Made by a program: the position numbers and the translations under genes. The notes under the pieces were generated by a model. The model was not told the DNA's origin and did no database searches. It worked only from the letters and a program-made list of their open reading frames with translations. A DNA stretch of 23,142 nt from a virus: the IMG/VR virus record IMGVR_UViG_3300017719_000217, positions 1 through 23,142 of that record; one strand, written 5' to 3'. Below, piece by piece: positions 2,072 through 15,366 of the stretch (positions are counted from its first letter, which is position 1; each line of letters starts with the position of its first letter).

Positions 2072-2794
2072 TTAAAGTCCTTTCAAAATTTCCCACGTAT
2101 CTTGCCAATCCTTAACTTGAAAGCATTTAGCATTAGGATAGTCTTTAAGAGTGTTGGCGAGAGGCCAATCATTTCCACCAATTTCCATCTTATCTCCAAA
2201 GAAATAAATTTCATCATCCATACTGAAATCCTGAACGATTTGAGCTTTATCTCTACCAATAGGATAAATGTCTAAACCAGTTTCGCCACCAATTTGAGCG
2301 GTAAGACAAGTACTTTCAGAACCAAACACATAATTGAAAGTTCTAGAAATATGTAGGCGTTCATTGTTTATTTTGTCATACTTAACATATTGCTCTCTTT
2401 GTTCTGGTGTTGCGTTACGTCCTACAATGCTGAAGTTAACACAACCGCGGCGTTCTTCAATATGATTACCAGTTTGTGGTTGGAATGGTGAACGAATGAG
2501 TTCCATTTCTAACCAATGACGAGCGGTGTCTGGCAATGTCCAACTTGATGCGTTGGCAATCTTGCCTTTAAATCTTGTTTCGTTTCCGCTGCAATTATAA
2601 ACAGTAACAACTTCTTCGCAAATGTTTTTGCCGAGCTGTTCTAATGTTTTTGGATAATCACTGCCAGTAACAAGCCATGTTTTGTTTGTTTGGATAAAAC
2701 CCCAAAACCATTTTTCAAAATGGAAGTCTATTTTTGCACGACTAGGAGTAAGAGTTCCGTCAACGTCAAATATAAATTTTCTTAGTTTTGCCAT
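2072..2794 (-). CDS. Eukaryotic-type phosphomannomutase (HAD superfamily)
   Basis: Predicted to interconvert mannose-6-phosphate and mannose-1-phosphate, feeding GDP-sugar synthesis. Starting at MAKLRKF, it shows HAD motif I FDVDGTLT (residues 9-16; nucleophile D10, acid D12), motif II around LVTGSD, a cap with RRGCVNFSIVGRNATPEQRE...YDK, a Lys in GRDKAQ, and motif IV FFGDKMEIGGND. The cap signature and GGND match the PMM1/PMM2 family (PF03332), about 245 residues, rather than the bacterial alpha-D-phosphohexomutase family; length is 240. ATG at 2794 is chosen over GTG at 2800. It overlaps a 53-residue gene upstream, with no clear ribosome-binding site, suggesting coupling. A nucleotide-sugar dehydrogenase and a cytidylyltransferase lie just upstream. 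Confidence 0.85.
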   Translation of the reverse strand: MAKLRKFIFDVDGTLTPSRAKIDFHFEKWFWGFIQTNKTWLVTGSDYPKTLEQLGKNICEEVVTVYNCSGNETRFKGKIANASSWTLPDTARHWLEMELIRSPFQPQTGNHIEERRGCVNFSIVGRNATPEQREQYVKYDKINNERLHISRTFNYVFGSESTCLTAQIGGETGLDIYPIGRDKAQIVQDFSMDDEIYFFGDKMEIGGNDWPLANTLKDYPNAKCFQVKDWQDTWEILKGL

Positions 2795-2943
2795 GCGCAC
2801 GCCGTTAATTCATTATCCTCAAAAGTTGCCCGTAACACTGCTTGGTTAATATCACACTGCTGCCGTGTATTATAACGGTTAAACTCTACAACTTTATAAT
2901 CATTATATTCTGGAATAAACGATATGACAAATAATATCCACAT
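2782..2943 (-). CDS. 53-residue conserved-type small phage protein
   Basis: The start overlaps the previous gene's stop as TAATG (2945-2941), and the end overlaps the phosphomannomutase start by 13 bases. The sequence opens with a hydrophobic stretch (MWILFVISFIPEY) and contains a YNTRQQCDINQAVL segment. It resembles short proteins seen in marine T4-like phages. The opening could be a membrane anchor or a beta strand. Function is unknown. A possible ribosome-binding site, AAGGAG, lies 12 bases upstream. Confidence 0.6.
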   Translation of the reverse strand: MWILFVISFIPEYNDYKVVEFNRYNTRQQCDINQAVLRATFEDNELTACAWQN

Positions 2944-3059
2944 TATTCTTCCAACTCCTTATAGACCCAACGACTTAGGGGAGGGTCGCCAAAATAGCGA
3001 GCGTAAACAATATTACCTACGCGTTCAAAAATTAGATGTTTACTATCTTTCGTTTCCAT
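2943..3059 (-). CDS. 38-residue conserved-type small phage protein
   Basis: ATG at 3057-3059 has AGGAGA about 10 bases upstream. The product centres on FERVGNIVYARYFGDPP, a pattern I associate with a short conserved protein of T4-like marine phages (recollection of family, not a search). It overlaps the 60-residue gene upstream by 17 bases and shares TAATG with the next gene. No function is known. Confidence 0.6.
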   Translation of the reverse strand: METKDSKHLIFERVGNIVYARYFGDPPLSRWVYKELEE

Positions 3060-3225
3060 TACACCAATGTCTCCTATTATGAGCGTTTTTAATTAGTTCA
3101 CTAAAGCGGTCTGCAATTCGTCTAACTTCAGGACCAGCGTTATTATCATGTTGTTCCATAATACGTGCAGTGTTATGTAGTTGATTCAGCATTTCTGAAT
3201 CCATTTCCCATTGCTCGTCACTCAT
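3043..3225 (-). CDS. 60-residue helical hypothetical protein
   Basis: It starts by ATGA overlap with the preceding 59-residue gene (TGA 3222-3224, ATG 3223-3225). It is mostly helical and charged (MLNQLHNTARIMEQH and VRRIADRFSELIKNA) and ends CNGNER. There is no strong ribosome-binding site beyond GGTG, consistent with translational coupling. No family is recognised. Confidence 0.6.
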   Translation of the reverse strand: MSDEQWEMDSEMLNQLHNTARIMEQHDNNAGPEVRRIADRFSELIKNAHNRRHWCNGNER

Positions 3226-3401
3226 CGTTGCACCAACGGTTTAACGTTTTGGTTATCATGATAGTCGCCTGACGTATAATAGTCTCGGCTTGCTTCTTCT
3301 TTAATCATACTGCCGTTACGCATACGATATGTAATAATTTCACGTCTGATTACGCCGTCAGTATCAGCATCAAACGCGTTCTTAAATGGTCCATCAGTCA
3401 T
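3222..3401 (-). CDS. 59-residue conserved-type small phage protein
   Basis: ATG at 3399-3401 overlaps the end of the cytidylyltransferase gene by 8 bases, with GAGAG about 6 bases upstream. It ends by ATGA overlap with the next gene. The product carries REIITYRMRNGSMIKEEASRDYY and then GDYHD, a combination that looks like a short conserved protein of marine T4-like phages. Function is unknown. It is one of four consecutive genes under 62 codons linked by exact overlaps. Confidence 0.6.
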   Translation of the reverse strand: MTDGPFKNAFDADTDGVIRREIITYRMRNGSMIKEEASRDYYTSGDYHDNQNVKPLVQR

Positions 3402-3801
3402 TACAAACTCTCTTTCTTAAATCACTTGTACTAAAACGGTGATCCCGTTTATTAAAATATAAATCTATACCACGTTTACGGCAAATGTCTTTACCTGTAA
3501 AATCTTTTTCCTTATACTCAACTCCGAGGATACGAATATCTATATGGTACATTGATAATATATCACAAAGATCACCTTCTGTCAAATACGGAATGATCTC
3601 ATCAACGTAACTTATAGCTTTTAATTGCGTATAGCGCTCAACCACAGTTTGCACGGGAGCGTTCTTATCAGGGCGATCTAAAGTTGGATTGATTTGTAAA
3701 CCACAAATTAAATAATCGCACTGTTCTTTTGCGTCTCTTAACATTTGTACATGTCCTGCATGCAGTAAATCAAATGCTGATGCTGTAAACCCAACCTTCA
3801 T
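3394..3801 (-). CDS. TagD-like cytidylyltransferase
   Basis: Nucleotidyltransferase of the HIGH superfamily that most likely activates a small phosphate ester (for example glycerol-3-phosphate) with CTP, releasing pyrophosphate. With the start at ATG 3801, residues 10-17 (FDLLHAGH) hold the HxGH motif, and residues 122-131 (RFSTSDLRKR) match the C-terminal ISTS/T signature. Length 135 fits the family (about 130). AGG lies seven bases before this ATG, and the previous gene stops two bases upstream. A start five codons earlier is less likely. The substrate could also be a sugar or alcohol phosphate; that part is inferred. It lies between the dehydrogenase and phosphomannomutase genes of the glycan set. 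Confidence 0.8.
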   Translation of the reverse strand: MKVGFTASAFDLLHAGHVQMLRDAKEQCDYLICGLQINPTLDRPDKNAPVQTVVERYTQLKAISYVDEIIPYLTEGDLCDILSMYHIDIRILGVEYKEKDFTGKDICRKRGIDLYFNKRDHRFSTSDLRKRVCND

Positions 3802-3802
3802 T

Positions 3803-4582
3803 TTATGACCTAACAATACTAATCACGTTTGATGTATCCACTTTTAGGTTTTCATTGTATTTTCTTGCAGCTTCAATAATAGACATATTTTCTCCATAAC
3901 GTTCACCTGTCCTGCATATAGCGCTCGTATCTTTTGGAAAGCAATGTCCACCAAATCCACGTTCACGCGTAATAGTCGTATGGCTTTTTCCTATTCTGCG
4001 GTCTTGCGTTACAAAGTGAGATACTAATGCATAATCAACTCCTGCGGCTTCGCACAAATCATAAATCTGATTAAAGAACGAAACCTTGGTCGCTAGGAAT
4101 GAATTGATAAAGTATTTAGCTAAAATTAATTCTTTAGGATCTGCTACTTCTAATTTGCAGCCTAATCTTTTTCCTAATATATCTACCCAGAACGCAACGT
4201 CACCGCCGCCGAGCTGTATTACTTGTTGCTTTTTAAAATCTTCAACAGCATACTTAGCTCTGAGGTATTCTGGCGAAAACGTAATTTGTTTATCAGGGAA
4301 ATTATTTTCAATTGAGACCCATCCTTCTAGACTAATAGTTGATTTAATTAAAATTGGAACATCAGGACATGTTTCAAGAACTCCATACACATTACGCATA
4401 TCACAAGATCCATCATCTTCATGCTGTGGTGTACTGACTGCAATAATAACGCAGTCAGTATTTTCATCCCAATTTGTATATCCTAATGCAGGATCGTAAA
4501 CAGTTACATTATCGTTTTTACCTGCAAGAGCAAACGCGTGAGCCTTTCCAACAAACCCGTATCCTGCTATTTGAATTTTCAT
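3803..4582 (-). CDS. UDP-glucose/GDP-mannose dehydrogenase family protein, short form
   Basis: NAD-dependent oxidation of a nucleotide sugar C6 alcohol to a uronic acid is the family reaction. Seen: an N-terminal Rossmann motif (GYGFVGKAHA, residues 7-16), IAVSTP at 47-52, the family Glu in SPEYLR, Lys156 and Asn160 in LAKYFINSF, and the catalytic Cys214 in GFGGHCFPKDT. Only 259 residues are present, against about 390-450 for the family: the C-terminal NDP-sugar-binding domain is missing. There is no sign of a frameshifted remainder, because the next gene starts two bases later. Either it works without that domain or has a changed role. Start ATG overlaps the upstream stop (ATGA). Confidence 0.8.
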   Translation of the reverse strand: MKIQIAGYGFVGKAHAFALAGKNDNVTVYDPALGYTNWDENTDCVIIAVSTPQHEDDGSCDMRNVYGVLETCPDVPILIKSTISLEGWVSIENNFPDKQITFSPEYLRAKYAVEDFKKQQVIQLGGGDVAFWVDILGKRLGCKLEVADPKELILAKYFINSFLATKVSFFNQIYDLCEAAGVDYALVSHFVTQDRRIGKSHTTITRERGFGGHCFPKDTSAICRTGERYGENMSIIEAARKYNENLKVDTSNVISIVRS

Positions 4583-4926
4583 AATTTAAGCCATTCCATT
4601 TTTTCAACCTGCAAATCACGATAAGCAATTTGTTCTACATCTTTATCCGGATCGTCTATCATTGTTTGCCATACATGGTAAACGTGGTTTTCAACTTGAT
4701 AAGATGATTTGTCGCACACATATTCAGATTTAGCTGTCATAAATATCCAAGACAATCCATCTTCTGATTCCCTACACTCCAAAATTCCTCCAGATATTTT
4801 CCATTCAGTCTTTGCCTTTGCGGCCTCATAACCTTCGTTCCAACCACATAATAACCGATAGTGTGGTGTTTCGTGGTTTTTTACTTTAAATATTACCCAG
4901 CTGCTAGGGTTCCATTGCTTTAACAT
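4579..4926 (-). CDS. Hypothetical protein, 115 aa, Trp-rich
   Basis: Rich in tryptophan and predicted beta strands: SSWVIFKVKNHETPHYRLLCGWNEGY, then WKISGGILECRES and LSWIFMTAKSEYVC. This suggests a small beta-rich fold, with a helical tail ending QVEKMEWLKL. No domain is recognised. ATG at 4926 has GGA eight bases upstream and lies inside the end of the preceding gene. It overlaps the dehydrogenase start by ATGA. It may be a small beta protein found in related phages; the role is unknown. Confidence 0.65.
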   Translation of the reverse strand: MLKQWNPSSWVIFKVKNHETPHYRLLCGWNEGYEAAKAKTEWKISGGILECRESEDGLSWIFMTAKSEYVCDKSSYQVENHVYHVWQTMIDDPDKDVEQIAYRDLQVEKMEWLKL

Positions 4927-5143
4927 TTTTGTATTCCATTTCTGTTTTTATTTCTGTCCCTTCTTTATCGTAGGCAATTCCCAGAGCAAGTGATTGTATG
5001 TCTTCAATCAAAACTCGGCACGTATGCGCATCATATGTTTGCTCTGCCAAGTCACTATATTGATTTCTAAGACGGTGAACCATAACAGCTTTGTCTTTCA
5101 TAACTTCTATACGTCTAATTAAATCTTCAATAGTATGTTGCAT
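4904..5143 (-). CDS. Hypothetical helical protein, 79 aa
   Basis: The start shares TAATG with the stop of the upstream 110-residue gene. The sequence is largely helical and charged (IEDLIRRIEVMKDKAVMVHRLRNQYSDL), consistent with a short coiled coil. It has two cysteine- or histidine-bearing positions (HTCRVL). It overlaps the next gene by 23 bases. No function is recognised. Confidence 0.65.
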   Translation of the reverse strand: MQHTIEDLIRRIEVMKDKAVMVHRLRNQYSDLAEQTYDAHTCRVLIEDIQSLALGIAYDKEGTEIKTEMEYKNVKAMEP

Positions 5144-5475
5144 TACATTACGCTTTCATCTTCCCAACGATTGAGGGACTTGAGTTTTTGTTCCACTGTC
5201 CAATCCGCTAAATATTCGTTATCTGAATCAAACAGCTTTAGTACTTCTTCTTGAGTTAACACGACTTTGTCAACGGTTTGTTCTCCCAACCATTTTTGAG
5301 AGAATTCTTTAACGCGTTCTTCCATCACCAACTCTTCAACCCACGTTAAAGCTTCTTTATCGTTTCCTTCGAGTTTTGTATTTGGGTTTAATTTTTGCAA
5401 GTCAGAAATCGGTACTGCATATCTCATGCGGTGTGTTGAAACCACGGTTACCATTGCAAATCGTTCATCACTCAT
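5143..5475 (-). CDS. Hypothetical protein, 110 aa
   Basis: The N-terminal third looks like beta strands (FAMVTVVSTHRMRYAVPISDL). It is followed by an acidic helical part with EALTWVEELVMEERVKEFSQKWLGE and a C-terminal WTVEQKLKSLNRWED. ATG at 5475 overlaps the previous TGA as ATGA. It resembles uncharacterised proteins of T4-like marine phages. Role unknown. Confidence 0.65.
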   Translation of the reverse strand: MSDERFAMVTVVSTHRMRYAVPISDLQKLNPNTKLEGNDKEALTWVEELVMEERVKEFSQKWLGEQTVDKVVLTQEEVLKLFDSDNEYLADWTVEQKLKSLNRWEDESVM

Positions 5476-5774
5476 CTTTTACGTTTCCTTCTTTTATTTA
5501 TCGGTCGCAAGTGGTGCAAACCGTCTATCACACGATTAGGGTATTCACCGAGATAAGTACCCGCTATTAGATCCATAGGACCGATTAAATGTTTATGAAA
5601 ATGTTCTATTTCATTCCATTTGTCATACATTACTTTTGCCATATTATCAAAGAACTGATCTGACAATATTGGATCATCTTCTTTATAGTATGCATATGCA
5701 GCCATAAGATACCAAGGAACCATAAGATTAATATTTTTATCAAAAAAACCTTGTGCTTTAGTATCTAACAACAT
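5472..5774 (-). CDS. Hypothetical protein with DNA-ligase-Ia-like segment, 100 aa
   Basis: ATG at 5774 directly follows the TAA of the hydrolase gene (5775-5777). The central stretch PWYLMAAYAYYKEDDPILSD followed by QFFDNMAKVMYDKW resembles the N-terminal Ia helix pair of NAD-dependent DNA ligase (pattern Y-Y...D.P.LSD..FD.L). The rest of the ligase, including adenylation motifs, is absent. The C-terminus is very basic (KRRKRKR). The likeness is limited and may reflect a common fold without NAD chemistry. Similar stand-alone proteins occur in marine T4-like phages. Function unassigned. Confidence 0.65.
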   Translation of the reverse strand: MLLDTKAQGFFDKNINLMVPWYLMAAYAYYKEDDPILSDQFFDNMAKVMYDKWNEIEHFHKHLIGPMDLIAGTYLGEYPNRVIDGLHHLRPINKRRKRKR

Positions 5775-6302
5775 TTACTGATCCCAACGATAAAAGATAT
5801 GAGCACCAAGACGGCCAACCTGCTGAAGGTCTTTAGCCCAACGCGGACTTACATAAGTTGCATGATAATGAGTGGCTCCTTCGGTAATGCCACGGTATTT
5901 TCCCCACTCAAGTAATTGTGACGCAATCATTTGAGCTTCATTCCAACGATCCTGATCTTGTGGGTTATCAGATTTTCCGTCGCAGTACCAGCTAAACTGA
6001 CACATATTACGCTTCATTGAACCGTCTGCATTTTTAATGCCTTGCTGGACAACTTCGCATATTGTGTTAGGATAACGTGTATCGTACTTTCTATTTAGAA
6101 CTACATCTGCAACTCCAGCTTTATCCGCAAGGTTGCTGCCACGTGATTCATAGTATATGTTTAAAGCCAAGCAGTTAGCTTCTTGTTCTGACCATAGTCT
6201 TTCTTGCTCGGCCGCAATTACAGGTAGTGTAAGAGATCCTATAACTACTGTTCCTGTCAAAGCTGCGGATACTGTTGCTGCGATAATTTGTTTCAGTTTC
6301 AT
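5775..6302 (-). CDS. Exported cell-wall hydrolase, SleB/CwlJ family
   Basis: Predicted peptidoglycan-cleaving enzyme (PF07486 family). From MKLKQII, residues 1-31 form a signal peptide (basic start, hydrophobic core, cleavage after VIAA). The catalytic domain shows LALNIYYESRG (Glu52), AGVADVVLNR, CQFSWYCDG, then GATHYHATYVSPRW and the closing RLGAHIFYR. The family's full core is present in 175 residues, with no cell-wall-binding repeat. ATG at 6302 has GAGG six bases upstream, better than the ATG four codons earlier. It has its own consensus promoter and a TATAAATA box, and sits far from the endolysin/spanin genes, so it may act at another stage or site. Confidence 0.85.
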   Translation of the reverse strand: MKLKQIIAATVSAALTGTVVIGSLTLPVIAAEQERLWSEQEANCLALNIYYESRGSNLADKAGVADVVLNRKYDTRYPNTICEVVQQGIKNADGSMKRNMCQFSWYCDGKSDNPQDQDRWNEAQMIASQLLEWGKYRGITEGATHYHATYVSPRWAKDLQQVGRLGAHIFYRWDQ

Positions 6303-6318
6303 TGTGTGCCTCAATTTA

Positions 6319-6326
6319 TATTTATA
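6319..6326 (-). promoter_or_regulatory. T4-like late promoter box TATAAATA (candidate)
   Basis: An exact TATAAATA octamer on the minus strand lies between the TTGACA/TATATT promoter and the hydrolase ATG. Transcription from it would begin near 6313, leaving a leader of only about 11 bases containing the GAGG ribosome-binding site. That short leader weakens the case. Confidence 0.3.
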
Positions 6327-6332
6327 GTTACT

Positions 6333-6361
6333 AATATAACTGATTCTATTGAGTATGTCAA
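6333..6361 (-). promoter_or_regulatory. Sigma70-type promoter, TTGACA-17-TATATT
   Basis: -35 TTGACA at 6356-6361, -10 TATATT at 6333-6338, 17-base spacer. It lies in the 62-base gap ahead of the exported hydrolase and directly after the stop of the 80-residue coiled protein. The spacer contains TAGAATCAGTTA, which recurs near the promoter at 89-117. Confidence 0.75.
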
Positions 6362-6364
6362 TGG

Positions 6365-6607
6365 TTATTTTCTATCTTGCCTTATTTGGTTCAAAACATT
6401 TTTAAGTTTAAACACAATTCCGGTTTGCAATGCTTCTTTGGACCAATAGCTTTCATCTTCAGTCAAAGCATCAAGAGTATCCATAAGCATCATGTTTTGT
6501 CCACGCAAACCGTCAATATCGCTACGTAACATTGCCTTTTCAACTTTGTGTTGTTTGATTTCTTGCTGTAAGTAATGTACTCCAGCTTCGTTTGGTTTGA
6601 CTCGCAT
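6365..6607 (-). CDS. Hypothetical coiled-coil protein, 80 aa
   Basis: Begins MRVKPNEAGVHYLQQEI and is almost entirely amphipathic helix (EIKQHKVEKAMLRSDIDGLRGQNMMLMDTLDAL), so an oligomerising coiled coil is likely. The start overlaps the previous gene's stop as TGATG. No family is recognised. It is the last gene before the hydrolase promoter. Confidence 0.65.
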   Translation of the reverse strand: MRVKPNEAGVHYLQQEIKQHKVEKAMLRSDIDGLRGQNMMLMDTLDALTEDESYWSKEALQTGIVFKLKNVLNQIRQDRK

Positions 6608-8175
6608 CAGCCGTGCTTTTCAAAGAAATTGTAATCTGAAATGTAAATCCATTTAATAAAGTCAATTTGGTCTTTACTGAAATCGTCTGCGGTGATTTCT
6701 TTTACTGTAAAGTTTAGTACTTTGTTTATTTTAAAAAAGTTATTGACTTCGTGTTTATTAATAACTTGAAACTCTTTAAAGTTTTTAGTATCAACAAACA
6801 TACATTGAGGATGAAAATGATGTACTTGATGCGCGCCTGATATTTTATGGAGATTTTTAAAGAACAAGTCTATCTTTTCTTGCTTTGTACACTCAGCAAG
6901 GTTTTTACCAAATGAATTGAAAATATCCTTTCCGTAATCGTAATATCTTTGACCTTCAGTTAAGTATACATTGATTAAAGAAACGAACCTTTCAACGGGA
7001 TCTGTGAATACGACTATAGGTGTACCTTTATCCTTTTTGTTTTTTATGACTGCTTTATATTCTTTTGTATCTCTAAAGATTTGCTTTCGGTCAGGATGCG
7101 TTTCCTTAATTGTAACCGAACAACTTCTTGGCACTTCAAACCAAGTTTGTTTTCCGTCAAGATCATATAATAAAGGCCATGAAAGTTTATTGCACCAAAA
7201 ACATTCGCAAGGTGAAAACTTGAATTCTTTAAACAAGTCTGTTTCAGGTAAAAAGAAATCTCTTAACTTTTGATTTTGCAAAAGCATAGATGGAAGTTTG
7301 GCAAGTGGATATCTTTTCAACACGTGGTCTGCAAATCCGTCAGGAGCAGGTCCACCTTCAACTGGTTGTGTATCCTTTACAAATTTCTTATATGCTCCAT
7401 CGTTATAACCATCTAGCGTTTTCATCCATTGAAGTTTATCAAAAGCATGTGCAAAAGATTTGGCTTTCGTTTCACGCTGAGAGTTTGTTCCCATCCATGC
7501 AAAATGCCAACCAAGATCTTGTATCATTTGTCCGCCGTGCATTGCAAACTGTAGCTTAAATGGCATATTGCCACAGCGAATGTTTAACATACCACCTGAC
7601 CTGTTAACCTGGTGTTTAGTTGCCATAAACATAGCTCGTTGCCAAATTCTAAAGGCACCTGTCGATTTATGATATACTCTTAAATCAGCTCTGCCTTGTA
7701 AATAAACTAAAGGTATTTTAAGAATGGAGTGATTACTATTTTGTTGAACGAGTTCAGCTAACCACTTTACGTTTTTAGGATCTACGATTTCGTCTGCATC
7801 GCCATATATAAAAACATCATCCGAGTCAAAATCTTTCATACCTTCCATAACAGCATCTTTTTGCAGACGCTCACGTACACGGCACAGTATAGATTCTATG
7901 CTACTATTTTTACCGGCATTTTGCTGGTCAATTGGCATTACAACCAAATCATTATCGTCAGGAATATCATGCTCAATGTAAATGATTTTTTCCATAGGAA
8001 GTCCAAGGTTCCTTGCAATTTCAAGAAACTTTCTTTCAACAGGCGCACCGCTGTGTGTCTTATTAGACTCAACGATGATAAAGTTATCAACCACATCTTT
8101 TAGCATATTAACCCGAAGCTGCAGAATTTCTTCGTTAGTCGGAGCAAAAAATGGAAAGCAATCTACAATTTTCAT
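6607..8175 (-). CDS. GT17-like glycosyltransferase fused to a sulfotransferase-like domain
   Basis: Two domains in 522 residues. Residues 1-250 match glycosyltransferase family 17 (PF04724, bisecting-GlcNAc transferase relatives): KIVDCFPFF, RVNMLKDVVDNFIIVES, SGAP, KIIYIEHD, and the metal/nucleotide site GDADEI (125-130). Residues 320-522 resemble membrane-type carbohydrate sulfotransferases: a PAPS 5'-phosphosulfate-like loop WFEVPRSCSVTIK (345-357), a 3'-phosphate-like FTDPVERFVSL (390-400), HHFHPQ (452-457), and a terminal YISDYNFF. No signal peptide or membrane segment, so it would act in the cytoplasm. The gene abuts a methyltransferase gene; together they suggest assembly and sulfation or methylation of a glycan. 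GT17 call firm; sulfotransferase call probable, activity and substrate inferred. Confidence 0.8.
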   Translation of the reverse strand: MKIVDCFPFFAPTNEEILQLRVNMLKDVVDNFIIVESNKTHSGAPVERKFLEIARNLGLPMEKIIYIEHDIPDDNDLVVMPIDQQNAGKNSSIESILCRVRERLQKDAVMEGMKDFDSDDVFIYGDADEIVDPKNVKWLAELVQQNSNHSILKIPLVYLQGRADLRVYHKSTGAFRIWQRAMFMATKHQVNRSGGMLNIRCGNMPFKLQFAMHGGQMIQDLGWHFAWMGTNSQRETKAKSFAHAFDKLQWMKTLDGYNDGAYKKFVKDTQPVEGGPAPDGFADHVLKRYPLAKLPSMLLQNQKLRDFFLPETDLFKEFKFSPCECFWCNKLSWPLLYDLDGKQTWFEVPRSCSVTIKETHPDRKQIFRDTKEYKAVIKNKKDKGTPIVVFTDPVERFVSLINVYLTEGQRYYDYGKDIFNSFGKNLAECTKQEKIDLFFKNLHKISGAHQVHHFHPQCMFVDTKNFKEFQVINKHEVNNFFKINKVLNFTVKEITADDFSKDQIDFIKWIYISDYNFFEKHG

Positions 8176-8751
8176 TTATGATCTTTCTAATACTGTCAGT
8201 CCGTTATTGTTTGTTCTATGGTCTCTAAATTTCCAATGAGGATTTGCCATAATAAATTCAATAATGGCTGGAAGCAATCCTTGACCTTTGATTGCTTTAC
8301 GGTTTGGATTTGACGCCCACTCCATACTTTCGTCAACAGTACCATATGTATGAGTATCATGAAATGCTAAGAATCTTGTTGGTACATTACCATGCATAGC
8401 AAGTTCTTGTCTTAGTTGAGCCTGTGAATGCCATGTATCAATAAACAGCATATCAGTCGGTTCAATTTTAACTTGCAGTACATCTTTGATAATATAGTCA
8501 ACATCCTTACCTGCTTTACGAGCCATTTCAAATAATTCAGTAACACTTGGTTCTTCGTAAATGTCATATGACCGCAACACTACATCGCAAGTTAGGAATG
8601 CTCGAGAGCTCGCGCCACGGCGAACTCCCATTTCAGTTACGTGTTTACAGTGTTCAGCATAGTCTTTTAAAATCGGAAGATGCTCATTAATATCAGTGGG
8701 CTTAGCGGACCACTCATTGTATGTTTGGTTTATAATTGTTTGAAAGTTCAT
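8176..8751 (-). CDS. Class I SAM-dependent methyltransferase-like protein
   Basis: Resembles the Methyltransf_24/CmcI-type group that often O-methylates sugars. SAM motif I is HVTEMGVRRGASS (residues 37-49; E40, G42, G46). The acidic ribose-binding strand may be SYDIYEE. The motif LFIDTWHS and the AFHDTHTYG segment (HD..H) carry acidic and histidine residues that bind metal in relatives. Length 191 fits a single Rossmann domain. It starts by ATGA overlap with the RmlB-like gene, AAGGTGG eight bases upstream. Glycan methylation is inferred from its neighbours; a small-molecule target is possible. Confidence 0.75.
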   Translation of the reverse strand: MNFQTIINQTYNEWSAKPTDINEHLPILKDYAEHCKHVTEMGVRRGASSRAFLTCDVVLRSYDIYEEPSVTELFEMARKAGKDVDYIIKDVLQVKIEPTDMLFIDTWHSQAQLRQELAMHGNVPTRFLAFHDTHTYGTVDESMEWASNPNRKAIKGQGLLPAIIEFIMANPHWKFRDHRTNNNGLTVLERS

Positions 8752-9773
8752 ATGTCAAGCCACCTTCTGTTATCTAAAGTCCACTGGACCACTTCAGCAA
8801 TTCTTTCTCTAACAGGTTGCGGACGCCAACCCATATTCGCCATACGATCACCACTAAGAGCATAACGAAGATCATGGCCAGGACGGCTAGAATGGAAATC
8901 CATAAACTCATATTTAAGTTCCTTTCCTTGTGCGTCAGCAATAAGATTTGCGAGTTCTAAATTGTTAAGCTCGGTTGCTCCGCAGATGTTAAACTTAGGA
9001 CATTTAATACCACTATTATTTGACATATCTAAAGTACGATTGTGTTCTAGCAAAAACATTGTTGCGTCAGCTACATCTTCAGCGTGAATGTAATGACGAG
9101 ATCCTGGTATTGTTTTGCTTGCATCGCTATGAATTGTAACAGTACCGTCATCTCTTACATTCCGAATAGTCATAGGAATAAACTTTTCAGGATGTTGACG
9201 TTGGCCAAACACATTCATAGTGTGAGTAATATAAATTGGCATATTATAAGTATTTTGATATGCAACAGCCAATTCCTCAGCTCCAGCCTTAGATGCTGAA
9301 TATGGATTAGTACAATTATAACGATCATATTCGTCATACTTAATTCCATCCGGAGCAGGTCCAAATACTTCGTCTGTTGAAAAGTATAAGAACCTTTCAA
9401 GATTGTCTTGCCGACGACCATAATCTAAAAGATTAGCCGTACCCACTACGTTATCCATAACAAATTCCATAGGACGCTCAATAGAACGATCTACGTGGGA
9501 ACCAGCTGCCAGGTGAGCAATAATATCAACAGGACCAATGTCTGCTTCGAGCATTGGGTTGATTTCTGCCTTTAAGTCGTGGAAGATTGTTCGTACACGT
9601 TTACGCTCAGCAGGAGTTCGTTCCTGAAGTAAATCATGGAGGCGATTGAGATTACCGCTATAATCTAAACGATCAAGCGTTACAATTTCCCAGTCTGTTC
9701 GGAGGAGTACCTGATTAATTAAATGGTGAGCAATAAAACCACCGCCACCAGTAATTAGAATACGTTTTGCCAT
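8748..9773 (-). CDS. rmlB: dTDP-glucose 4,6-dehydratase-like SDR enzyme
   Basis: Extended short-chain dehydrogenase/reductase that most likely converts a nucleotide hexose to its 4-keto-6-deoxy form. Seen: NAD-binding ITGGGGFI (residues 7-14), HLAAGSHVDRS, a catalytic STDEVFG (132-138) with the Asp-Glu pair typical of RmlB, then YSASK with Tyr158 and Lys162. VFGQRQHPEKFIP and RHYIHAEDVADA follow. Length 341 matches RmlB (about 340-360). ATG 9773 has AAAGG seven bases upstream. The DE pair and length favour RmlB over GalE or GDP-mannose dehydratase, but the nucleotide is not certain. No RmlA, C or D is in the window, so the host would have to supply them, or the keto sugar goes elsewhere. Confidence 0.85.
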   Translation of the reverse strand: MAKRILITGGGGFIAHHLINQVLLRTDWEIVTLDRLDYSGNLNRLHDLLQERTPAERKRVRTIFHDLKAEINPMLEADIGPVDIIAHLAAGSHVDRSIERPMEFVMDNVVGTANLLDYGRRQDNLERFLYFSTDEVFGPAPDGIKYDEYDRYNCTNPYSASKAGAEELAVAYQNTYNMPIYITHTMNVFGQRQHPEKFIPMTIRNVRDDGTVTIHSDASKTIPGSRHYIHAEDVADATMFLLEHNRTLDMSNNSGIKCPKFNICGATELNNLELANLIADAQGKELKYEFMDFHSSRPGHDLRYALSGDRMANMGWRPQPVRERIAEVVQWTLDNRRWLDI

Positions 9774-9815: not shown

Positions 9816-10235
9816 TTACTTTAGCCAACCGATCCTTTTGCCTTTAGCAATGCGATCTTCAGCAATAGCCTGGGAGCCAGGATAACGCCATGCCCATGTA
9901 ACAATTAATGCGAATGTAATAAACAAGTAAAGCGTTGCTTTTTCATTACCTGTACCAAAATACATAAATGCCAAAGACGTGGACATAACTGCAACCATCA
10001 GCCATTTAGCGGCGGTTGGATATACACGGTACTTTGACCAGTTTTTAACAAATGGACCAAACCTTGGGTGGTTCATAATCCATGCATGCAATCTATCACT
10101 TGATTTAGCGAAACAAAACGTTGCGCCAAGAATTGGTGTTGACCAAGGTAGACCAGGTAGTAATACGCCGAGATACGCTACTCCTACTAAAATAATTCCT
10201 AGACAAAACCAAAAGGCTTTTTTAATCTTACTCAT
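9816..10235 (-). CDS. DUF454 (YbaN-type) inner-membrane protein
   Basis: From MSKIKKAFW, a hydrophobic helix (FCLGIILVGVAYLGVLLPGLP) leads into GLPWSTPILGATFCFAKSSDRLHAW and FGPFVKNW, the DUF454 signature. Two further hydrophobic segments lie near residues 75-110, so 3-4 membrane passes are expected. ATG at 10235 has AAGGA about seven bases upstream and gives the usual family N-terminus. An in-frame ATG at 10289, overlapping the previous TGA and led by GGAG, would add 18 residues. Function of DUF454 is unknown. It is unusual phage cargo, placed just behind 5-aminolevulinate synthase. Confidence 0.75.
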   Translation of the reverse strand: MSKIKKAFWFCLGIILVGVAYLGVLLPGLPWSTPILGATFCFAKSSDRLHAWIMNHPRFGPFVKNWSKYRVYPTAAKWLMVAVMSTSLAFMYFGTGNEKATLYLFITFALIVTWAWRYPGSQAIAEDRIAKGKRIGWLK

Positions 10236-10285
10236 TTTATTTTCCTTCCACAGTCGTTTTCCAAAGAATGCAGACTCAAGTTGAT

Positions 10286-10384
10286 TCATAATCCTAAACT
10301 CCACATCCATACTGGTATTACTACAACGTGTAAAAACACGCATAGAAATAACATCAGTTTGACTGTTAACATATTATTGTTCAT
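10286..10384 (-). CDS. 32-residue hydrophobic (membrane) peptide
   Basis: ATG at 10382-10384 overlaps the ALAS stop as ATGA. The frame ends with TGA at 10286-10288, overlapping the alternative DUF454 start at 10287-10289, again as ATGA. The product [19 protein letters not shown] and following VVVIPVWMW forms one transmembrane helix. It is supported only by the double overlap and composition; the ribosome-binding site (GAAG about 8 bases upstream) is modest. It may be a small membrane peptide accompanying DUF454. Confidence 0.45.
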
Positions 10385-11574
10385 TTAAGCACTTCTTTCA
10401 ATGCTTCTACCAACTCTACCATCATCACGTCATTGTGATACGGCGTTGGCGCAATTCGTAATCTTTCAGTACCAGCATTAACGGTTGGCGAATTAATTGC
10501 TTGAATATAAATTCCATACTCATTCAACAAACGATCACTGGCGTCTTTGCACTTAAACGCATCATTAACCATTACAGGGACGATATGTGTGCAACACGAG
10601 TCATGAACTGGTATATTAGCTTCGCTCAACAATTGTTTCAGTTTTGTTGCTCGTTGTTGATGTTGGGATCGCAAGCCTGTATGATCTTTGAGAAATTTGA
10701 TTGAGGCAATTGCTCCGGCGCACACGGCGGGCGATATACTTGTTGTAAAGATGAACCCAGAAGCCACGGACCTAATAGCGTCAATGACAGTACGATTCCC
10801 ACTAATATACCCGCCTTGAACTCCGAATGCTTTTCCAAGTGTACCATTAATAATATCTACCCTGTCTTCTAAACCAAGGTGCTCGCAATAACCTCCACCT
10901 TGTTCGCCGTATAAACCAACGGCATGTACTTCGTCAATATACGTAATTGCGTTATATTTATCCGCTAAGTCCAATATCTGTTCAATAAGAGCAACATCGC
11001 CATCCATAGAATACACAGACTCAAATAGTATACAAGGTACCTGTCCACTTTCTGTTGCAATAGTTAATGCTTCCTCGAGATCTGCCATATCGTTATGATG
11101 AAAAATCATTTTATCAGCACGGCTGTGCTTAACGCCCATAATGATAGACGCATGATTTTTGTTGTCAGAAATAAAACATATGTTTGGTATAATTCTACTT
11201 AAAGAAATAATAGCCCATTCGTTTGCAACATATGCGGACGAGAAAAGAAGTGCTGACTCCTTTTTATGAAGCGACGCAAGTTCTCTTTCTAATGTAACAT
11301 GGTATTGCGAGGTTCCGCCAATATTGCGTGTACCGCCGGATCCTGATCCTGTTTGGTCTAAAGCTGTGTGCATAGCGTCAATAACATATTCGTTTTGACC
11401 CATACCAAGATAGTCGTTTGAGCACCAATTAACAATATTCTTAGGAGCGTATTTGCCATACCAAATTGCTTTTGGAAAGTTACCACGTTCTCTTATGATA
11501 TCATTAAAAACTCTATAACGACCATCTTCTCTATAACTATCGACTGTATTTTTAAAATAGTGCAAATGTTTCAT
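10381..11574 (-). CDS. hemA: 5-aminolevulinate synthase
   Basis: PLP enzyme condensing glycine with succinyl-CoA to 5-aminolevulinate, the first committed step of haem and other tetrapyrrole synthesis (C4/Shemin route). From MKHLHYF (397 aa, family about 400): [25 protein letters not shown] (76-88), [28 protein letters not shown] (214-220), PLP lysine K248 in [16 protein letters not shown], and [11 protein letters not shown]. The TRNI motif and close fit throughout favour ALAS over glycine C-acetyltransferase or BioF. Complete, all key residues present. ATG 11574 lies one base after the NrdA TAA, with GAAG six bases upstream. Embedded in the nucleotide-synthesis operon, so expressed with it. 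The alphaproteobacterial type suggests the host lineage; no regulatory CP motif is visible. Confidence 0.9.
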
Positions 11575-11575
11575 A

Positions 11576-13234
11576 TTAAGCTTCGCAGGCTGCACAACCT
11601 TCTAACATTACACGCTTTCGAGTAAGTGATTGCGCTGCAGACATTGAATAACTGTAGTACAAACTCTTTACACCCATTTCCCACGCATATAGATACATTT
11701 GATTGATTTCTTTAACTGACATATCAGGATCTAACATTAGGTTTAGACTTTGCGATTGGTCAATGTATTCTTGACGAATTGCGGCTTGGTCAATAATTGC
11801 GTTTGGATTAATTTCTGAAAACGTTTTGAATACGGCTCGTTCATTTTCATCCAGCAATTCTACAAGGTGTTGCACAGATCCATCTCTTGCTTTAATACTA
11901 TCCCACGTTTCTACGGTATCTGCACCTTTATCTTCAAGGAGTTTTTGTAGATATGGATTTTTGATTGTAACTTTCATTTTGGCCAGATCTTTAACATAAC
12001 AGTTGCTGAACTCAGGCTCAATTGATTGTGATACTTGCCCAAGAATAAAGCTCGATGATTTAGTAGGAGCAATTGCCATCGTTGTAGTATTACGCATTCC
12101 ATAACCTTTTAGTAAAGGTGGCTCGCCTAAAGTTTTTGCTAACTCAGTAGACGCCGCGTGGGATCTTTCACGTAATGTTTGTGCAATTTCTAAATTCAAT
12201 TTTGACGCAGCTGAACCTTCAAAGGCCATCATTTTTGATTGAAGTAACGAATGCCATCCAAGAATACCAACACCAAGGGCGCGGTGGTTCATAGCAAAGT
12301 CACGCGCTCGTTTTAAATAGATTTGGCCTTCTGTTTTAATAATAAATTCTTCACAAACAGTATCAAGGAATTTTGTCATTGTTTCAATCGCGTCAGTATC
12401 TTTAATTTGATCCCAATGCAATACGTTAATAGAAGAAAGTACACATGTAAATGTTTCTTCGTGGCTGGATGGTAACGCAATTTCAGCACACATGTTTGAA
12501 GCATAAACTCTCATATCTTTGTCTTTATAGACTTGCGGTCTTCCGTTATTTACATTATCGGAATATAGGATATAAGGAAAACCAACTTCAGAACGACGTT
12601 GTAGAACCTTTGCCCACAAGCGGCGCTTTTCAGGATCCCCTGCTTTCATTTCTTCAATGAATTTATCACTAACAGTAATACCAGTTGTTAGACCTTGAAT
12701 AGGATTGCCTTCTGTACCAATGTCCAAAAACTCATCAGCATCAGGATGTTCAATGTCTTGATATGCAGCAAAGAAACCGCGGCGAACAGAACCTTGTGAT
12801 ACAACAGACGCAAGTGTATCATACATTTGCATAAAGTGTACTGAGCCTGAGGACTCGCCTGAGTCTCGAATAGGAGCGCCACGATGACGGATATTACCAA
12901 AGTAACCTGACGTACCACCACCGTTTTTCATTAGCATACCGTTTTCAGCATGACCAAACAAGATAGCTTGCATGCTATCATCAATGTATGAACCAAAGCA
13001 AGATACAGGTAAACCTCGTTCTTTACCGTAATTAGCCCAAACAGGAGATGCTAACGAATAAAAGCCACGAGCCATATACTCATAAAACTTGTCCGCAAAT
13101 CCTGGCTCGTTTAAATATTCTTCTGCTTTGTTTGCAATATCACGGATACGGCTTTCAGGAGTTTCACCTTCGCTAAGATAGCCGCGCGACAAAAATGTAC
13201 GAGAGTCCTCGTTTAACCAATAAAAATCTTTCAT
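11576..13234 (-). CDS. nrdA: Class I ribonucleotide reductase, catalytic subunit
   Basis: Reduces ribonucleoside diphosphates to deoxy forms, using a radical from NrdB. Seen: redox Cys79 in LPVSCFG, its partner Cys264 in FTCVLSS, the active-site N-M-C249-A-E251, the [12 protein letters not shown] loop, a radical-transfer tyrosine pair in SLYYS (526-527), and the C-terminal CAAC shuttle (547 and 550). At 552 residues it is about 200 shorter than E. coli NrdA (761): it begins directly in the ten-helix region and has no ATP-cone. The cone is instead fused to the partner NrdB upstream. ATG 13234 has AAGGA with good spacing. Followed immediately by the ALAS gene; a 12-base gap separates it from nrdB. 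Confidence 0.95.
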
Positions 13235-13246
13235 GTTTTTTCCTTA

Positions 13247-14530
13247 TTAAAATAGATCGTCTTCGGTGAATGCTTTGGTCTTTTTAGAATATGCTGTACT
13301 ACGTTTAACAAAGAAGTCAACATTCTTTGTACTCAAAATTTCTTCAACGAACCAGTCGGTACTTTTTACCGCCTCTTGATCTACCTCATATAAAGGCTTC
13401 ATATCTATAGCTGTTAATGATTGATTGAAACGATGTTTTAGGAATTCTTTAACAGTTGCTTTCGGCAAAAAGTCTAGGTCAGATTCACCATAGATCCAAT
13501 CGACGATAGCAGACTCAGCCTTGAAGGCATCGCGGCAAAGTCTATTCACTTCGTTAATACTTTCTTTATCAAACCACTCTGGGTTTTCTTCACGGATAAT
13601 GTTTACAAGCTCAAATCCGAAACGAGCATGGATATCTTCTTCTTTTGATGTTGCCTCTACGGCGTTGGAAATACCTTTTAATACATTCTTGTGTTTATTA
13701 AATGCCATCATAATTAGGAACTGACTAAACAGTGATACGTTTTCAACAAACATAGAGAATAGAATAATTTTATGGAAATAATCTTTATCATCAACTGGTG
13801 CAGCAATTGACTGCTCAAGATAAGCAATACGCTTTTTCATGGCAGGTACTTCTACAATCTTTGCAAACTCTTCGTTAAGTCCCATAATCTCAATAAGATT
13901 TGAATAAGCGTCGGCGTGACGTACTTCAGACTCGCCAAAGGTTACACCAACTGCCTGTACTTCTGGCTTTGGAAACTTATCACCGATTTTTGACCAAAAC
14001 GTTTTAACCGCAACTTCAATTTGAGAAATAGCCAACATTGCTTTCTTTACAATATCAACTTCCTCAGGTGTCATACGTACTTTCATATCTTGAATATCTG
14101 AGGAATAATTAAACTCAGTATGTACCCAATACGAATGGCGAATAGCGTCAGTAAATTCAACTACCTGTGGATACTCGTATGGTTTTAAACTTGTTCTTTT
14201 ACGAAAAATGTTTGGTTGGTTATTATAACGGAATAAAATATATTCACGAGCAAGATCGTGTAATCCCATATCCATAATTACATTTTCTACCTTTTGGTGC
14301 ACGGCATCAACATCAACTTGAATGTCTGCTTCATCATCTCGGTTCAACAAATCTGTAACTTCTAACGCAACTTCACCAGGAAGCATTCTACTTCGCATAC
14401 CAACGGTTTTCATAGCTTTAGATACGGCAGTACTAATTTTATTCTCATCATAAGATTCAGTAGTACCATCGCGTTTAGTAACGTAATTAACTCGTCTTAG
14501 AATTTCTGGTGGAGTTGATTGTAGCATCAT
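13247..14530 (-). CDS. nrdB: Class I ribonucleotide reductase radical subunit with N-terminal ATP-cone
   Basis: Residues about 14-105 form an ATP-cone (YVTKRDGTTESYDENKI ... LAREYILFRY), the allosteric activity domain usually found on NrdA. The ferritin-like core follows, with likely metal ligands D148, E202, H205, E263, E298 and H301 (SEVRH, FVENV, SKEEDIH). The radical tyrosine Y209 is in the ADAYS segment, so a tyrosyl-radical type is expected. The C-terminus ends in TEDDLF, the region that contacts NrdA. Length 427 equals a core (about 325) plus cone. Cone-bearing NrdB proteins are known, for example in Leeuwenhoekiella blandensis, where the cone controls activity through oligomerisation of NrdB. 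Two adjacent ATG codons are possible; the second has better spacing from GAGGA. Confidence 0.95.
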   Translation of the reverse strand: MMLQSTPPEILRRVNYVTKRDGTTESYDENKISTAVSKAMKTVGMRSRMLPGEVALEVTDLLNRDDEADIQVDVDAVHQKVENVIMDMGLHDLAREYILFRYNNQPNIFRKRTSLKPYEYPQVVEFTDAIRHSYWVHTEFNYSSDIQDMKVRMTPEEVDIVKKAMLAISQIEVAVKTFWSKIGDKFPKPEVQAVGVTFGESEVRHADAYSNLIEIMGLNEEFAKIVEVPAMKKRIAYLEQSIAAPVDDKDYFHKIILFSMFVENVSLFSQFLIMMAFNKHKNVLKGISNAVEATSKEEDIHARFGFELVNIIREENPEWFDKESINEVNRLCRDAFKAESAIVDWIYGESDLDFLPKATVKEFLKHRFNQSLTAIDMKPLYEVDQEAVKSTDWFVEEILSTKNVDFFVKRSTAYSKKTKAFTEDDLF

Positions 14531-14697: not shown

Positions 14698-15366
14698 TTA
14701 TTTTTGAACATAAGTATCAATTAACGGAAATATTTTGGATATGGCTTTTGCACATTCAGCTGCAATATCCATGTGTTCTTGTTGTGTTCCATTTGAAGCA
14801 CGCAGCTCAATATAATGGATCCAAGATCGGATAGAGCCTTGCATATACAAACGGCTAATAGTATTACCTTCAGGCAAAACCGCACGAGCCTGCTCTTTAG
14901 CAATACCATTTTCAATAGCCCACTTGTATGCATCTTCCGCCGCACGAATAACTTCACCCTGTTTTGAGTCCCACATCATCTGCAAACGTTCGTCAGAGTT
15001 AGCAATACTATTTTGACGGTTTTTAGTATCTTGTAAACGTGCTTCACGCGTTACAAACTGATTACCCATAAGCGCAGGGTCAGCATATCGTTGACTAAAC
15101 TCCTGAAAAGCAAAGGAGCGATGTCGTAACATTTGGCGAGCAATATCACGAGTAGTTTCAATTTCCATTGTTGCATTAGCCATTTCAAATGGTGACCAAT
15201 GAGCATGTTTTGCTAAGTAACCTAATAGCTTCGGCGCTGTTTCTTGGTTCAATTGATTAGTAGGATTTGACACTCTTGCGCAATATGCAATCATATCTTG
15301 CACATCGTCGAGCCCAATAATTTCTCCTTCAGCTGGTTGAGTATAACCAATTAATCTAACTTGCAT
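14698..15366 (-). CDS. thyX: FAD-dependent thymidylate synthase ThyX
   Basis: Converts dUMP to dTMP with methylenetetrahydrofolate, FAD and NADPH, supplying the phage with dTTP beside its ribonucleotide reductase. The signature RHR-x7-S is seen at R81-H82-R83 to S91 (RHRSFAFQEFSQR). HWSPFEMANATMEIE precedes it, and LPEGNTISRLYMQGSIRSW supplies the C-terminal active-site Ser/Arg region. Length 222 matches the family. ATG at 15366 has AAGGA seven bases upstream. A 167-base gap separates its stop from nrdB. Complete, no anomaly. Confidence 0.95.
   Translation of the reverse strand: MQVRLIGYTQPAEGEIIGLDDVQDMIAYCARVSNPTNQLNQETAPKLLGYLAKHAHWSPFEMANATMEIETTRDIARQMLRHRSFAFQEFSQRYADPALMGNQFVTREARLQDTKNRQNSIANSDERLQMMWDSKQGEVIRAAEDAYKWAIENGIAKEQARAVLPEGNTISRLYMQGSIRSWIHYIELRASNGTQQEHMDIAAECAKAISKIFPLIDTYVQK

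Follow-up and report, generated by a model that had tools for sequence, protein, structure and literature searches.

The window analysed here, the whole of a virus record of 23,142 bases, carries on its minus strand a run of genes in the order primase, thyX, nrdB, nrdA, putative 5-aminolevulinate synthase (ALAS) gene and DUF454, in which nrdB and nrdA encode the radical-generating and the catalytic subunit of a ribonucleotide reductase (RNR). The features on which the analysis centres are as follows.

14698–15366, minus strand: thyX, flavin-dependent thymidylate synthase (PF02511), upstream in the same nucleotide-metabolism cassette.
13247–14530, minus strand: nrdB, class Id (NrdBi) radical-generating subunit of 427 residues with an N-terminal ATP-cone (PF00268 and PF03477; 5OLK).
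14222–14485, minus strand: ATP-cone domain of NrdB, residues 16–103, with K19, R20 and K31 at the inner site and Y97 and R101 in helix 4 (PF03477).
14210–14227, minus strand: shortened cone–core junction, NrdB residues 102–107 (YNNQPN), as seen when 34 viral-type sequences are aligned with 79 bacterial ones.
13331–14209, minus strand: di-metal core of NrdB with the class Id signature (ten columns without variation across the phage clade and bacterial cone-bearing NrdBi).
11576–13234, minus strand: nrdA, minimal class Id catalytic subunit (NrdAi type) of 552 residues without an ATP-cone (Pfam; PDB 6dqx and 6dqw).

The end of nrdB and the start of nrdA are separated by 12 nucleotides, and this β–α order fits the correlation reported between such an order and a cone-bearing NrdB (PMC9669993). 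The end of nrdA is overlapped by the gene for a 404-residue PLP enzyme (10381–11595, minus strand) that reads as an ALAS, directly followed by the gene for a DUF454 (YbaN-like) protein (9816–10343, minus strand) for which a PHROG match was not found. An ALAS gene lies near nrdBA in 29 of the 80 IMG/VR relatives fetched, the DNA fetched for many of the others being too short to tell; phage AlaS was described in 2024 in a study that does not mention RNR (PMC11480375). Adjoining the nucleotide cassette is a run of sugar-nucleotide and surface-polysaccharide genes (2072–9773, minus strand), which includes phosphomannomutase-like, cytidylyltransferase, UDP-glucose dehydrogenase-like, glycosyltransferase 17-like and GDP-mannose dehydratase/epimerase genes.

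Residues 16–103 of NrdB match the ATP-cone family PF03477 (52.3 bits, E value 9e-14; cut-off 25.8) and are followed by the Ribonuc_red_sm domain (residues 113–384, Pfam). Searched in full with PF03477, the record yielded this single cone (14222–14485, minus strand; 52.3–55.4 bits against the cut-off of 25.8). The best match in the PDB is the NrdB of Leeuwenhoekiella blandensis (5OLK), aligned with residues 14–427 (E value 8e-141). Structure prediction, which had been proposed as a check on the cone, agrees: a ColabFold model built with 63 homologues, bacterial ones included (mean pLDDT 82, cone blocks about 73–93), which replaced an earlier model from viral sequences alone (pLDDT 67), aligns with 5OLK over residues 13–399, cone included (Z value of 40.5 over 386 residues), with r.m.s.d. 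values of 3.8 Å for cone plus core and 1.4 Å for the core alone (6SF5). The N-terminal ATP-cone that the earlier note had read in the phage NrdB, from a YVTKRDG...ENKI motif that is indeed present at residues 16–32, is thus borne out by the family match, the full-length 5OLK match and the predicted fold. Its placement ahead of the core also stands, and only the length given for it, about 90 residues, needs correction, the N-terminal extension comprising about 105. A chance motif or artefact was ruled out by Pfam, PDB, fold and 80 relatives.

Used on its own in a PDB search, the cone retrieved 5OLK first (E value 9e-7), then Prevotella copri NrdD and Pseudomonas aeruginosa NrdA, whose cones, like that of 5OLK, each bind two nucleotides (PMC11226230). 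Compared with this two-nucleotide type, the window cone shows invariant Y97 and R101, but its helix 4 has lost the basic residues at the end.

The signature of NrdBi, or class Id, consists of Glu in place of Asp at the first metal ligand, a conserved Trp and a Lys three residues before that Trp (PMC6754362). In the window NrdB these are E172, W179 and K176, invariant across the phage clade; indeed, ten metal-site columns (E172, K176, W179, E202, H205, Y209, E263, T294, E298 and H301) are invariant over the phage clade and the bacterial cone-bearing NrdBi together. Judged by sequence, NrdB and NrdA belong to subclass NrdAi/NrdBi (class Id), for which a Mn2(IV,III) cofactor and the lack of a tyrosyl radical are characteristic; a dimanganese site that forms no stable tyrosyl radical is therefore probable here too. 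Since the metal site has the class Id signature, the di-iron core described earlier is probably wrong.

Only all-alpha and barrel families were matched by NrdA in Pfam, a search in which an ATP-cone was not found, as expected from the earlier reading of a coneless subunit of 552 residues. Its best PDB matches are 6dqx (E value 8e-212) and 6dqw (E value 3e-182), both class Id α structures, and the motifs NMCAE, SCFGS, FTCVLSS and LYYSYS and a C-terminal CAAC can be read directly. NrdAi has been defined as a short α subunit, with a median length of 564 residues and no ATP-cone (PMC9669993), a description that the window NrdA fits in both length and lack of a cone. At loci L067, L052, L053 and L064, NrdA is broken at about residue 249, in the N-x-C-x-E active-site motif, by an intein-like sequence; the two halves occupy separate ORFs in the first three, in the manner of a split intein, and L064 is one long ORF.

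Conservation of the cone was examined over 81 viral NrdBs. V17, K19, R20, I32, A35, H78, E82, M86, R95, Y97, I98 and R101 are invariant in this set, K31 is Lys in 80 of the 81, position 27 is aromatic (Phe or Tyr) throughout, and position 25 (E25 in the window) carries Glu in 54 sequences and Lys in 25. Matched by motif, the invariant positions correspond to the inner-site motif of NrdR (V48, K50, R51, E56, F58 and K62) and to the outer-site Tyr83 and Arg87 of P. copri NrdD (PMC11226230). The cone is under purifying selection, weaker than that on the core: its dN/dS of 0.07 (median) to 0.10 (pooled) is low, yet two to three times the core value of 0.03 (NG86, 55 usable, non-independent pairs). 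Because selection is purifying and the nucleotide-binding motifs are retained, the cone is probably functional. An apparent mosaicism of cone and core in close pairs looked gradual in sliding identity, without a sharp change.

In line with the earlier proposal, the closest characterised enzyme is the NrdAi/NrdBi of L. blandensis (5OLK, 6SF4 and 6SF5; PMC5794259, PMC6754362), as judged from the full-length match to 5OLK and the fold comparison. The two systems have in common an N-terminal cone on NrdB, a coneless minimal NrdA and a β–α operon, and their NrdBs are 51% identical and share all class Id metal-site residues. L. blandensis NrdB is controlled by ATP and dATP, the latter inducing a β4 assembly through cone helices 3 and 4 (PMC5794259). 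The hydrophobic residues of that tetramer interface, Met80, Ile92 and Ile93, have Met86, Ile98 and Leu99 as their counterparts in the phage; Lys89 becomes Arg95 and Gln72 becomes His. Asp73, which forms salt bridges inside and between cones (PMC5794259), is mostly Lys or Arg in phages and Gln in the window. The residue published as Asp76 (PMC5794259) is a Glu at position 76 of the L. blandensis sequence that we fetched and Glu82 in the phage.

The most distinctive difference lies between cone and core. In the alignment of the 34 viral-type with the 79 bacterial sequences, the junction is four residues shorter in all viral-clade sequences than in the bacterial homologues, and L. blandensis Arg102, at the end of helix 4 and invariant in all 79, is deleted in the phage clade; its equivalent is present in both aligned cultured phages. 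The tetramer interface thus appears to be partly conserved, and the shorter helix 4 end could change its geometry. Together with the altered salt bridge, the shortened junction suggests an inhibited complex whose geometry is not that of L. blandensis.

Taken together, these features mean that the phage encodes a class Id NrdAi/NrdBi RNR whose sole ATP-cone sits on the radical-generating subunit, and make it likely that it keeps a dATP brake on dNTP supply, as in L. blandensis. The sequence itself shows how the domains are arranged, which subclass is present, how the genes are ordered and that the protein is conserved under purifying selection, and the mechanism is modelled on the L. blandensis homologue. 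With ATP on the cone, the NrdB dimer would pair with the minimal NrdA dimer and dNTPs would be made. As dATP accumulates it would displace ATP on the cone, and dATP-bound cones would then stick to one another via helices 3 and 4, locking NrdB in an inactive higher oligomer. The net effect would be that the phage retains a dATP brake over its own dNTP supply. Control of activity by ATP and dATP is likely to be kept, and it is plausible that inhibition would run through precisely the tetramer of L. blandensis.

It is quite possible, though on balance not what we expect, that the cone regulates without a β4 of the L. blandensis type, for example through another cone–cone contact or a contact between cone and NrdA. 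Both the four-residue deletion at the junction and the change of Asp73 to Lys, Arg or Gln in the phage clade would be in keeping with such an arrangement, and the cones of P. copri NrdD use another contact again (PMC11226230). However, M86, I98 and L99 of the interface are retained, together with E82 and the basic R95, and β4 is the form adopted by the closest characterised homologue (PMC5794259). With its shorter junction, the phage clade provides a natural variant for studying the influence of cone geometry on the inhibited oligomer.

As to the origin of the cone, the earlier note had it moved from NrdA to NrdB. No NrdAi has been reported to carry a cone (PMC5794259), and the cones nearest to that of the phage are those of phage NrdD and of 5OLK; since nothing indicates NrdA as the donor, the word ‘moved' should leave the title of that note. 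An E. coli-type NrdA cone was likewise rejected as the source, because NrdA-like cones of the sampled genomes score no more than 12–18 bits against the cone model, or drop out, and E. coli NrdA is absent from the results of the cone-only PDB search. Scans for viral NrdD relatives yielded three loci only.

In a core tree calculated with plain LG, the phage clade lies outside coneless and cone-bearing bacteria, a placement that first suggested an independent fusion. Under the C20 mixture model, support for a deep phage clade is 100/100 and coneless bacteria are nested inside cone-bearing ones (97/91); cone-bearers as one clade are rejected by the AU test (mixture model, p 0.008). This topology accommodates cone losses as well as it does an independent fusion; in the preferred reading the cone was lost by Rhizobium phage Y65 and by the nested coneless bacterial group, several gains being possible too. 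In the cone tree, the phage NrdB cones form a clade (97/98) with uL284, an uncultured relative with a short junction like that of the phage clade, and this clade falls on the side of the phage NrdD cones (93/89).

This placement brings in a tentative and rather doubtful alternative, namely that the phage lineage gained its cone independently, the source being an NrdD-type (anaerobic) cone of a phage, and that the cones of bacterial NrdBi are not its orthologues. Phage NrdB and Vequintavirinae NrdD cones also have in common the signature I-H..VE..MDMGL..AREYI, the identity to several phage NrdD cones is 33–39% against 27.6% to a Staphylococcus-type phage NrdB cone, and the junction length differs from that of bacterial NrdBi. 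Nevertheless, a single NrdB-cone clade survives the AU test on the cone tree (p 0.30; 97 columns only), the mixture-model core tree fits a single gain with two losses, and the best PDB match of the cone is still 5OLK. If this were indeed a second gain, the switch would have relocated convergently to one and the same non-homologous subunit; as the junction is shorter here, the inhibited complex would probably differ as well. The phage-specific junction and this possible independent fusion are the points of remaining interest.

The general view is that RNR activity control is shed in viruses, which tend towards loss of the cone (PMC9669993). Coneless class Id phage relatives exist, so the switch is dispensable in some lineages. 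The window cone might accordingly be a relic or a constitutive ATP-bound stabiliser, its dATP inhibition removed by phage selection, and its faster evolution relative to the core and the loss of a bacterial-invariant Arg could be read in that sense. We consider this unlikely: a useless domain of 105 residues would be expected to decay or vanish, as it has in the coneless relatives, whereas the cone is retained in all 80 relatives fetched (the best 80 of 224) with its nucleotide-contact residues invariant and dN/dS about 0.1. That a large uncultured phage clade keeps the NrdB switch, a small and separable domain, under purifying selection suggests that unlimited dATP is harmful even in infection.

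In IMG/VR, relatives are encoded on 224 stretches, the best 80 of which are 70–100% identical. A match that spans at least 80% of NrdB occurs in 70 of 50,697 cultured-phage records; those listed are nearly all from Staphylococcus phages, with Sporosarcina phage Lietuvens in addition. Silviavirus (Staphylococcus phages Romulus, Remus and others) and Lietuvens encode a cone-bearing NrdB and then a coneless NrdA, as in the window, and their NrdBs are 46–49% identical to the window NrdB over the whole length. These group with the bacterial cone-bearing NrdBi and keep the long junction, whereas the window clade stands apart with its short one. An earlier mention of an NrdB cone was not found in the studies of phage and marine viral RNRs examined. 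Taking into account these cultured phages and the 93 RefSeq NrdBi with N-terminal cones, from viruses and bacteria, counted in 2018 (PMC5794259), the arrangement is not new, having been described before in marine bacteria and in phages. What is new is a large, separate phage branch, numerous and with its own shortened cone–core junction.

The best cellular NrdBs are 50–54% identical and come mostly from Flavobacteriales. One exceptional match, at 83%, lies on a 43-kb contig (L084) in the Rhodobacteraceae bacterium Water_Bin34 MAG; it is probably phage DNA, because it carries the ThyX-NrdB-NrdA-ALAS cassette of the phages. The contig may be mis-binned into the MAG or may hint at a host; 289 genomes sampled from its class gave no match above 27% identity apart from L084 itself. 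Recent acquisition of NrdB and its cone from a bacterial host, although the same architecture occurs in many marine Flavobacteriia, is highly improbable, given the 50–54% identity of the best cellular NrdBs against 70–100% within the phage clade, the probable phage nature of the lone 83% match and the depth of the clade (100/100). The earlier note had left it to phylogeny to decide whether the fusion is host-derived, and this finds no support: no cellular gene is nested in the clade, except the phage-like L084.

Related architectures occur elsewhere in class Id. By literature description, the Grx-cone-NrdB fusion of Facklamia ignava (PMC6187632, PMC6754362) resembles the window NrdB in being a class Id NrdB with an ATP-cone and differs in its glutaredoxin domain, which the window NrdB lacks. 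The coneless class Id NrdBs of Flavobacterium johnsoniae (6CWO to 6CWQ) and Aggregatibacter (8DQ3) have the same core as the window protein (fold Z values of 38–40), and the coneless NrdB of Rhizobium phage RHph_Y65 has the same class Id signature residues. A further coneless class Id phage NrdB (L303, from 2935, plus strand) contains an intein-like insert between its SREE motif and the metal-ligand LHS motif. In a Bacteroidota genome (L270; genome G1242, contig C65), a class Id NrdB is fused to the N terminus of NrdA in one ORF of at least 839 residues, apparently a one-chain class I RNR. Finally, Proteus phage Privateer gp067 (L351, 292–588), annotated as ribonucleotide reductase, is a stand-alone ATP-cone protein of 98 residues.
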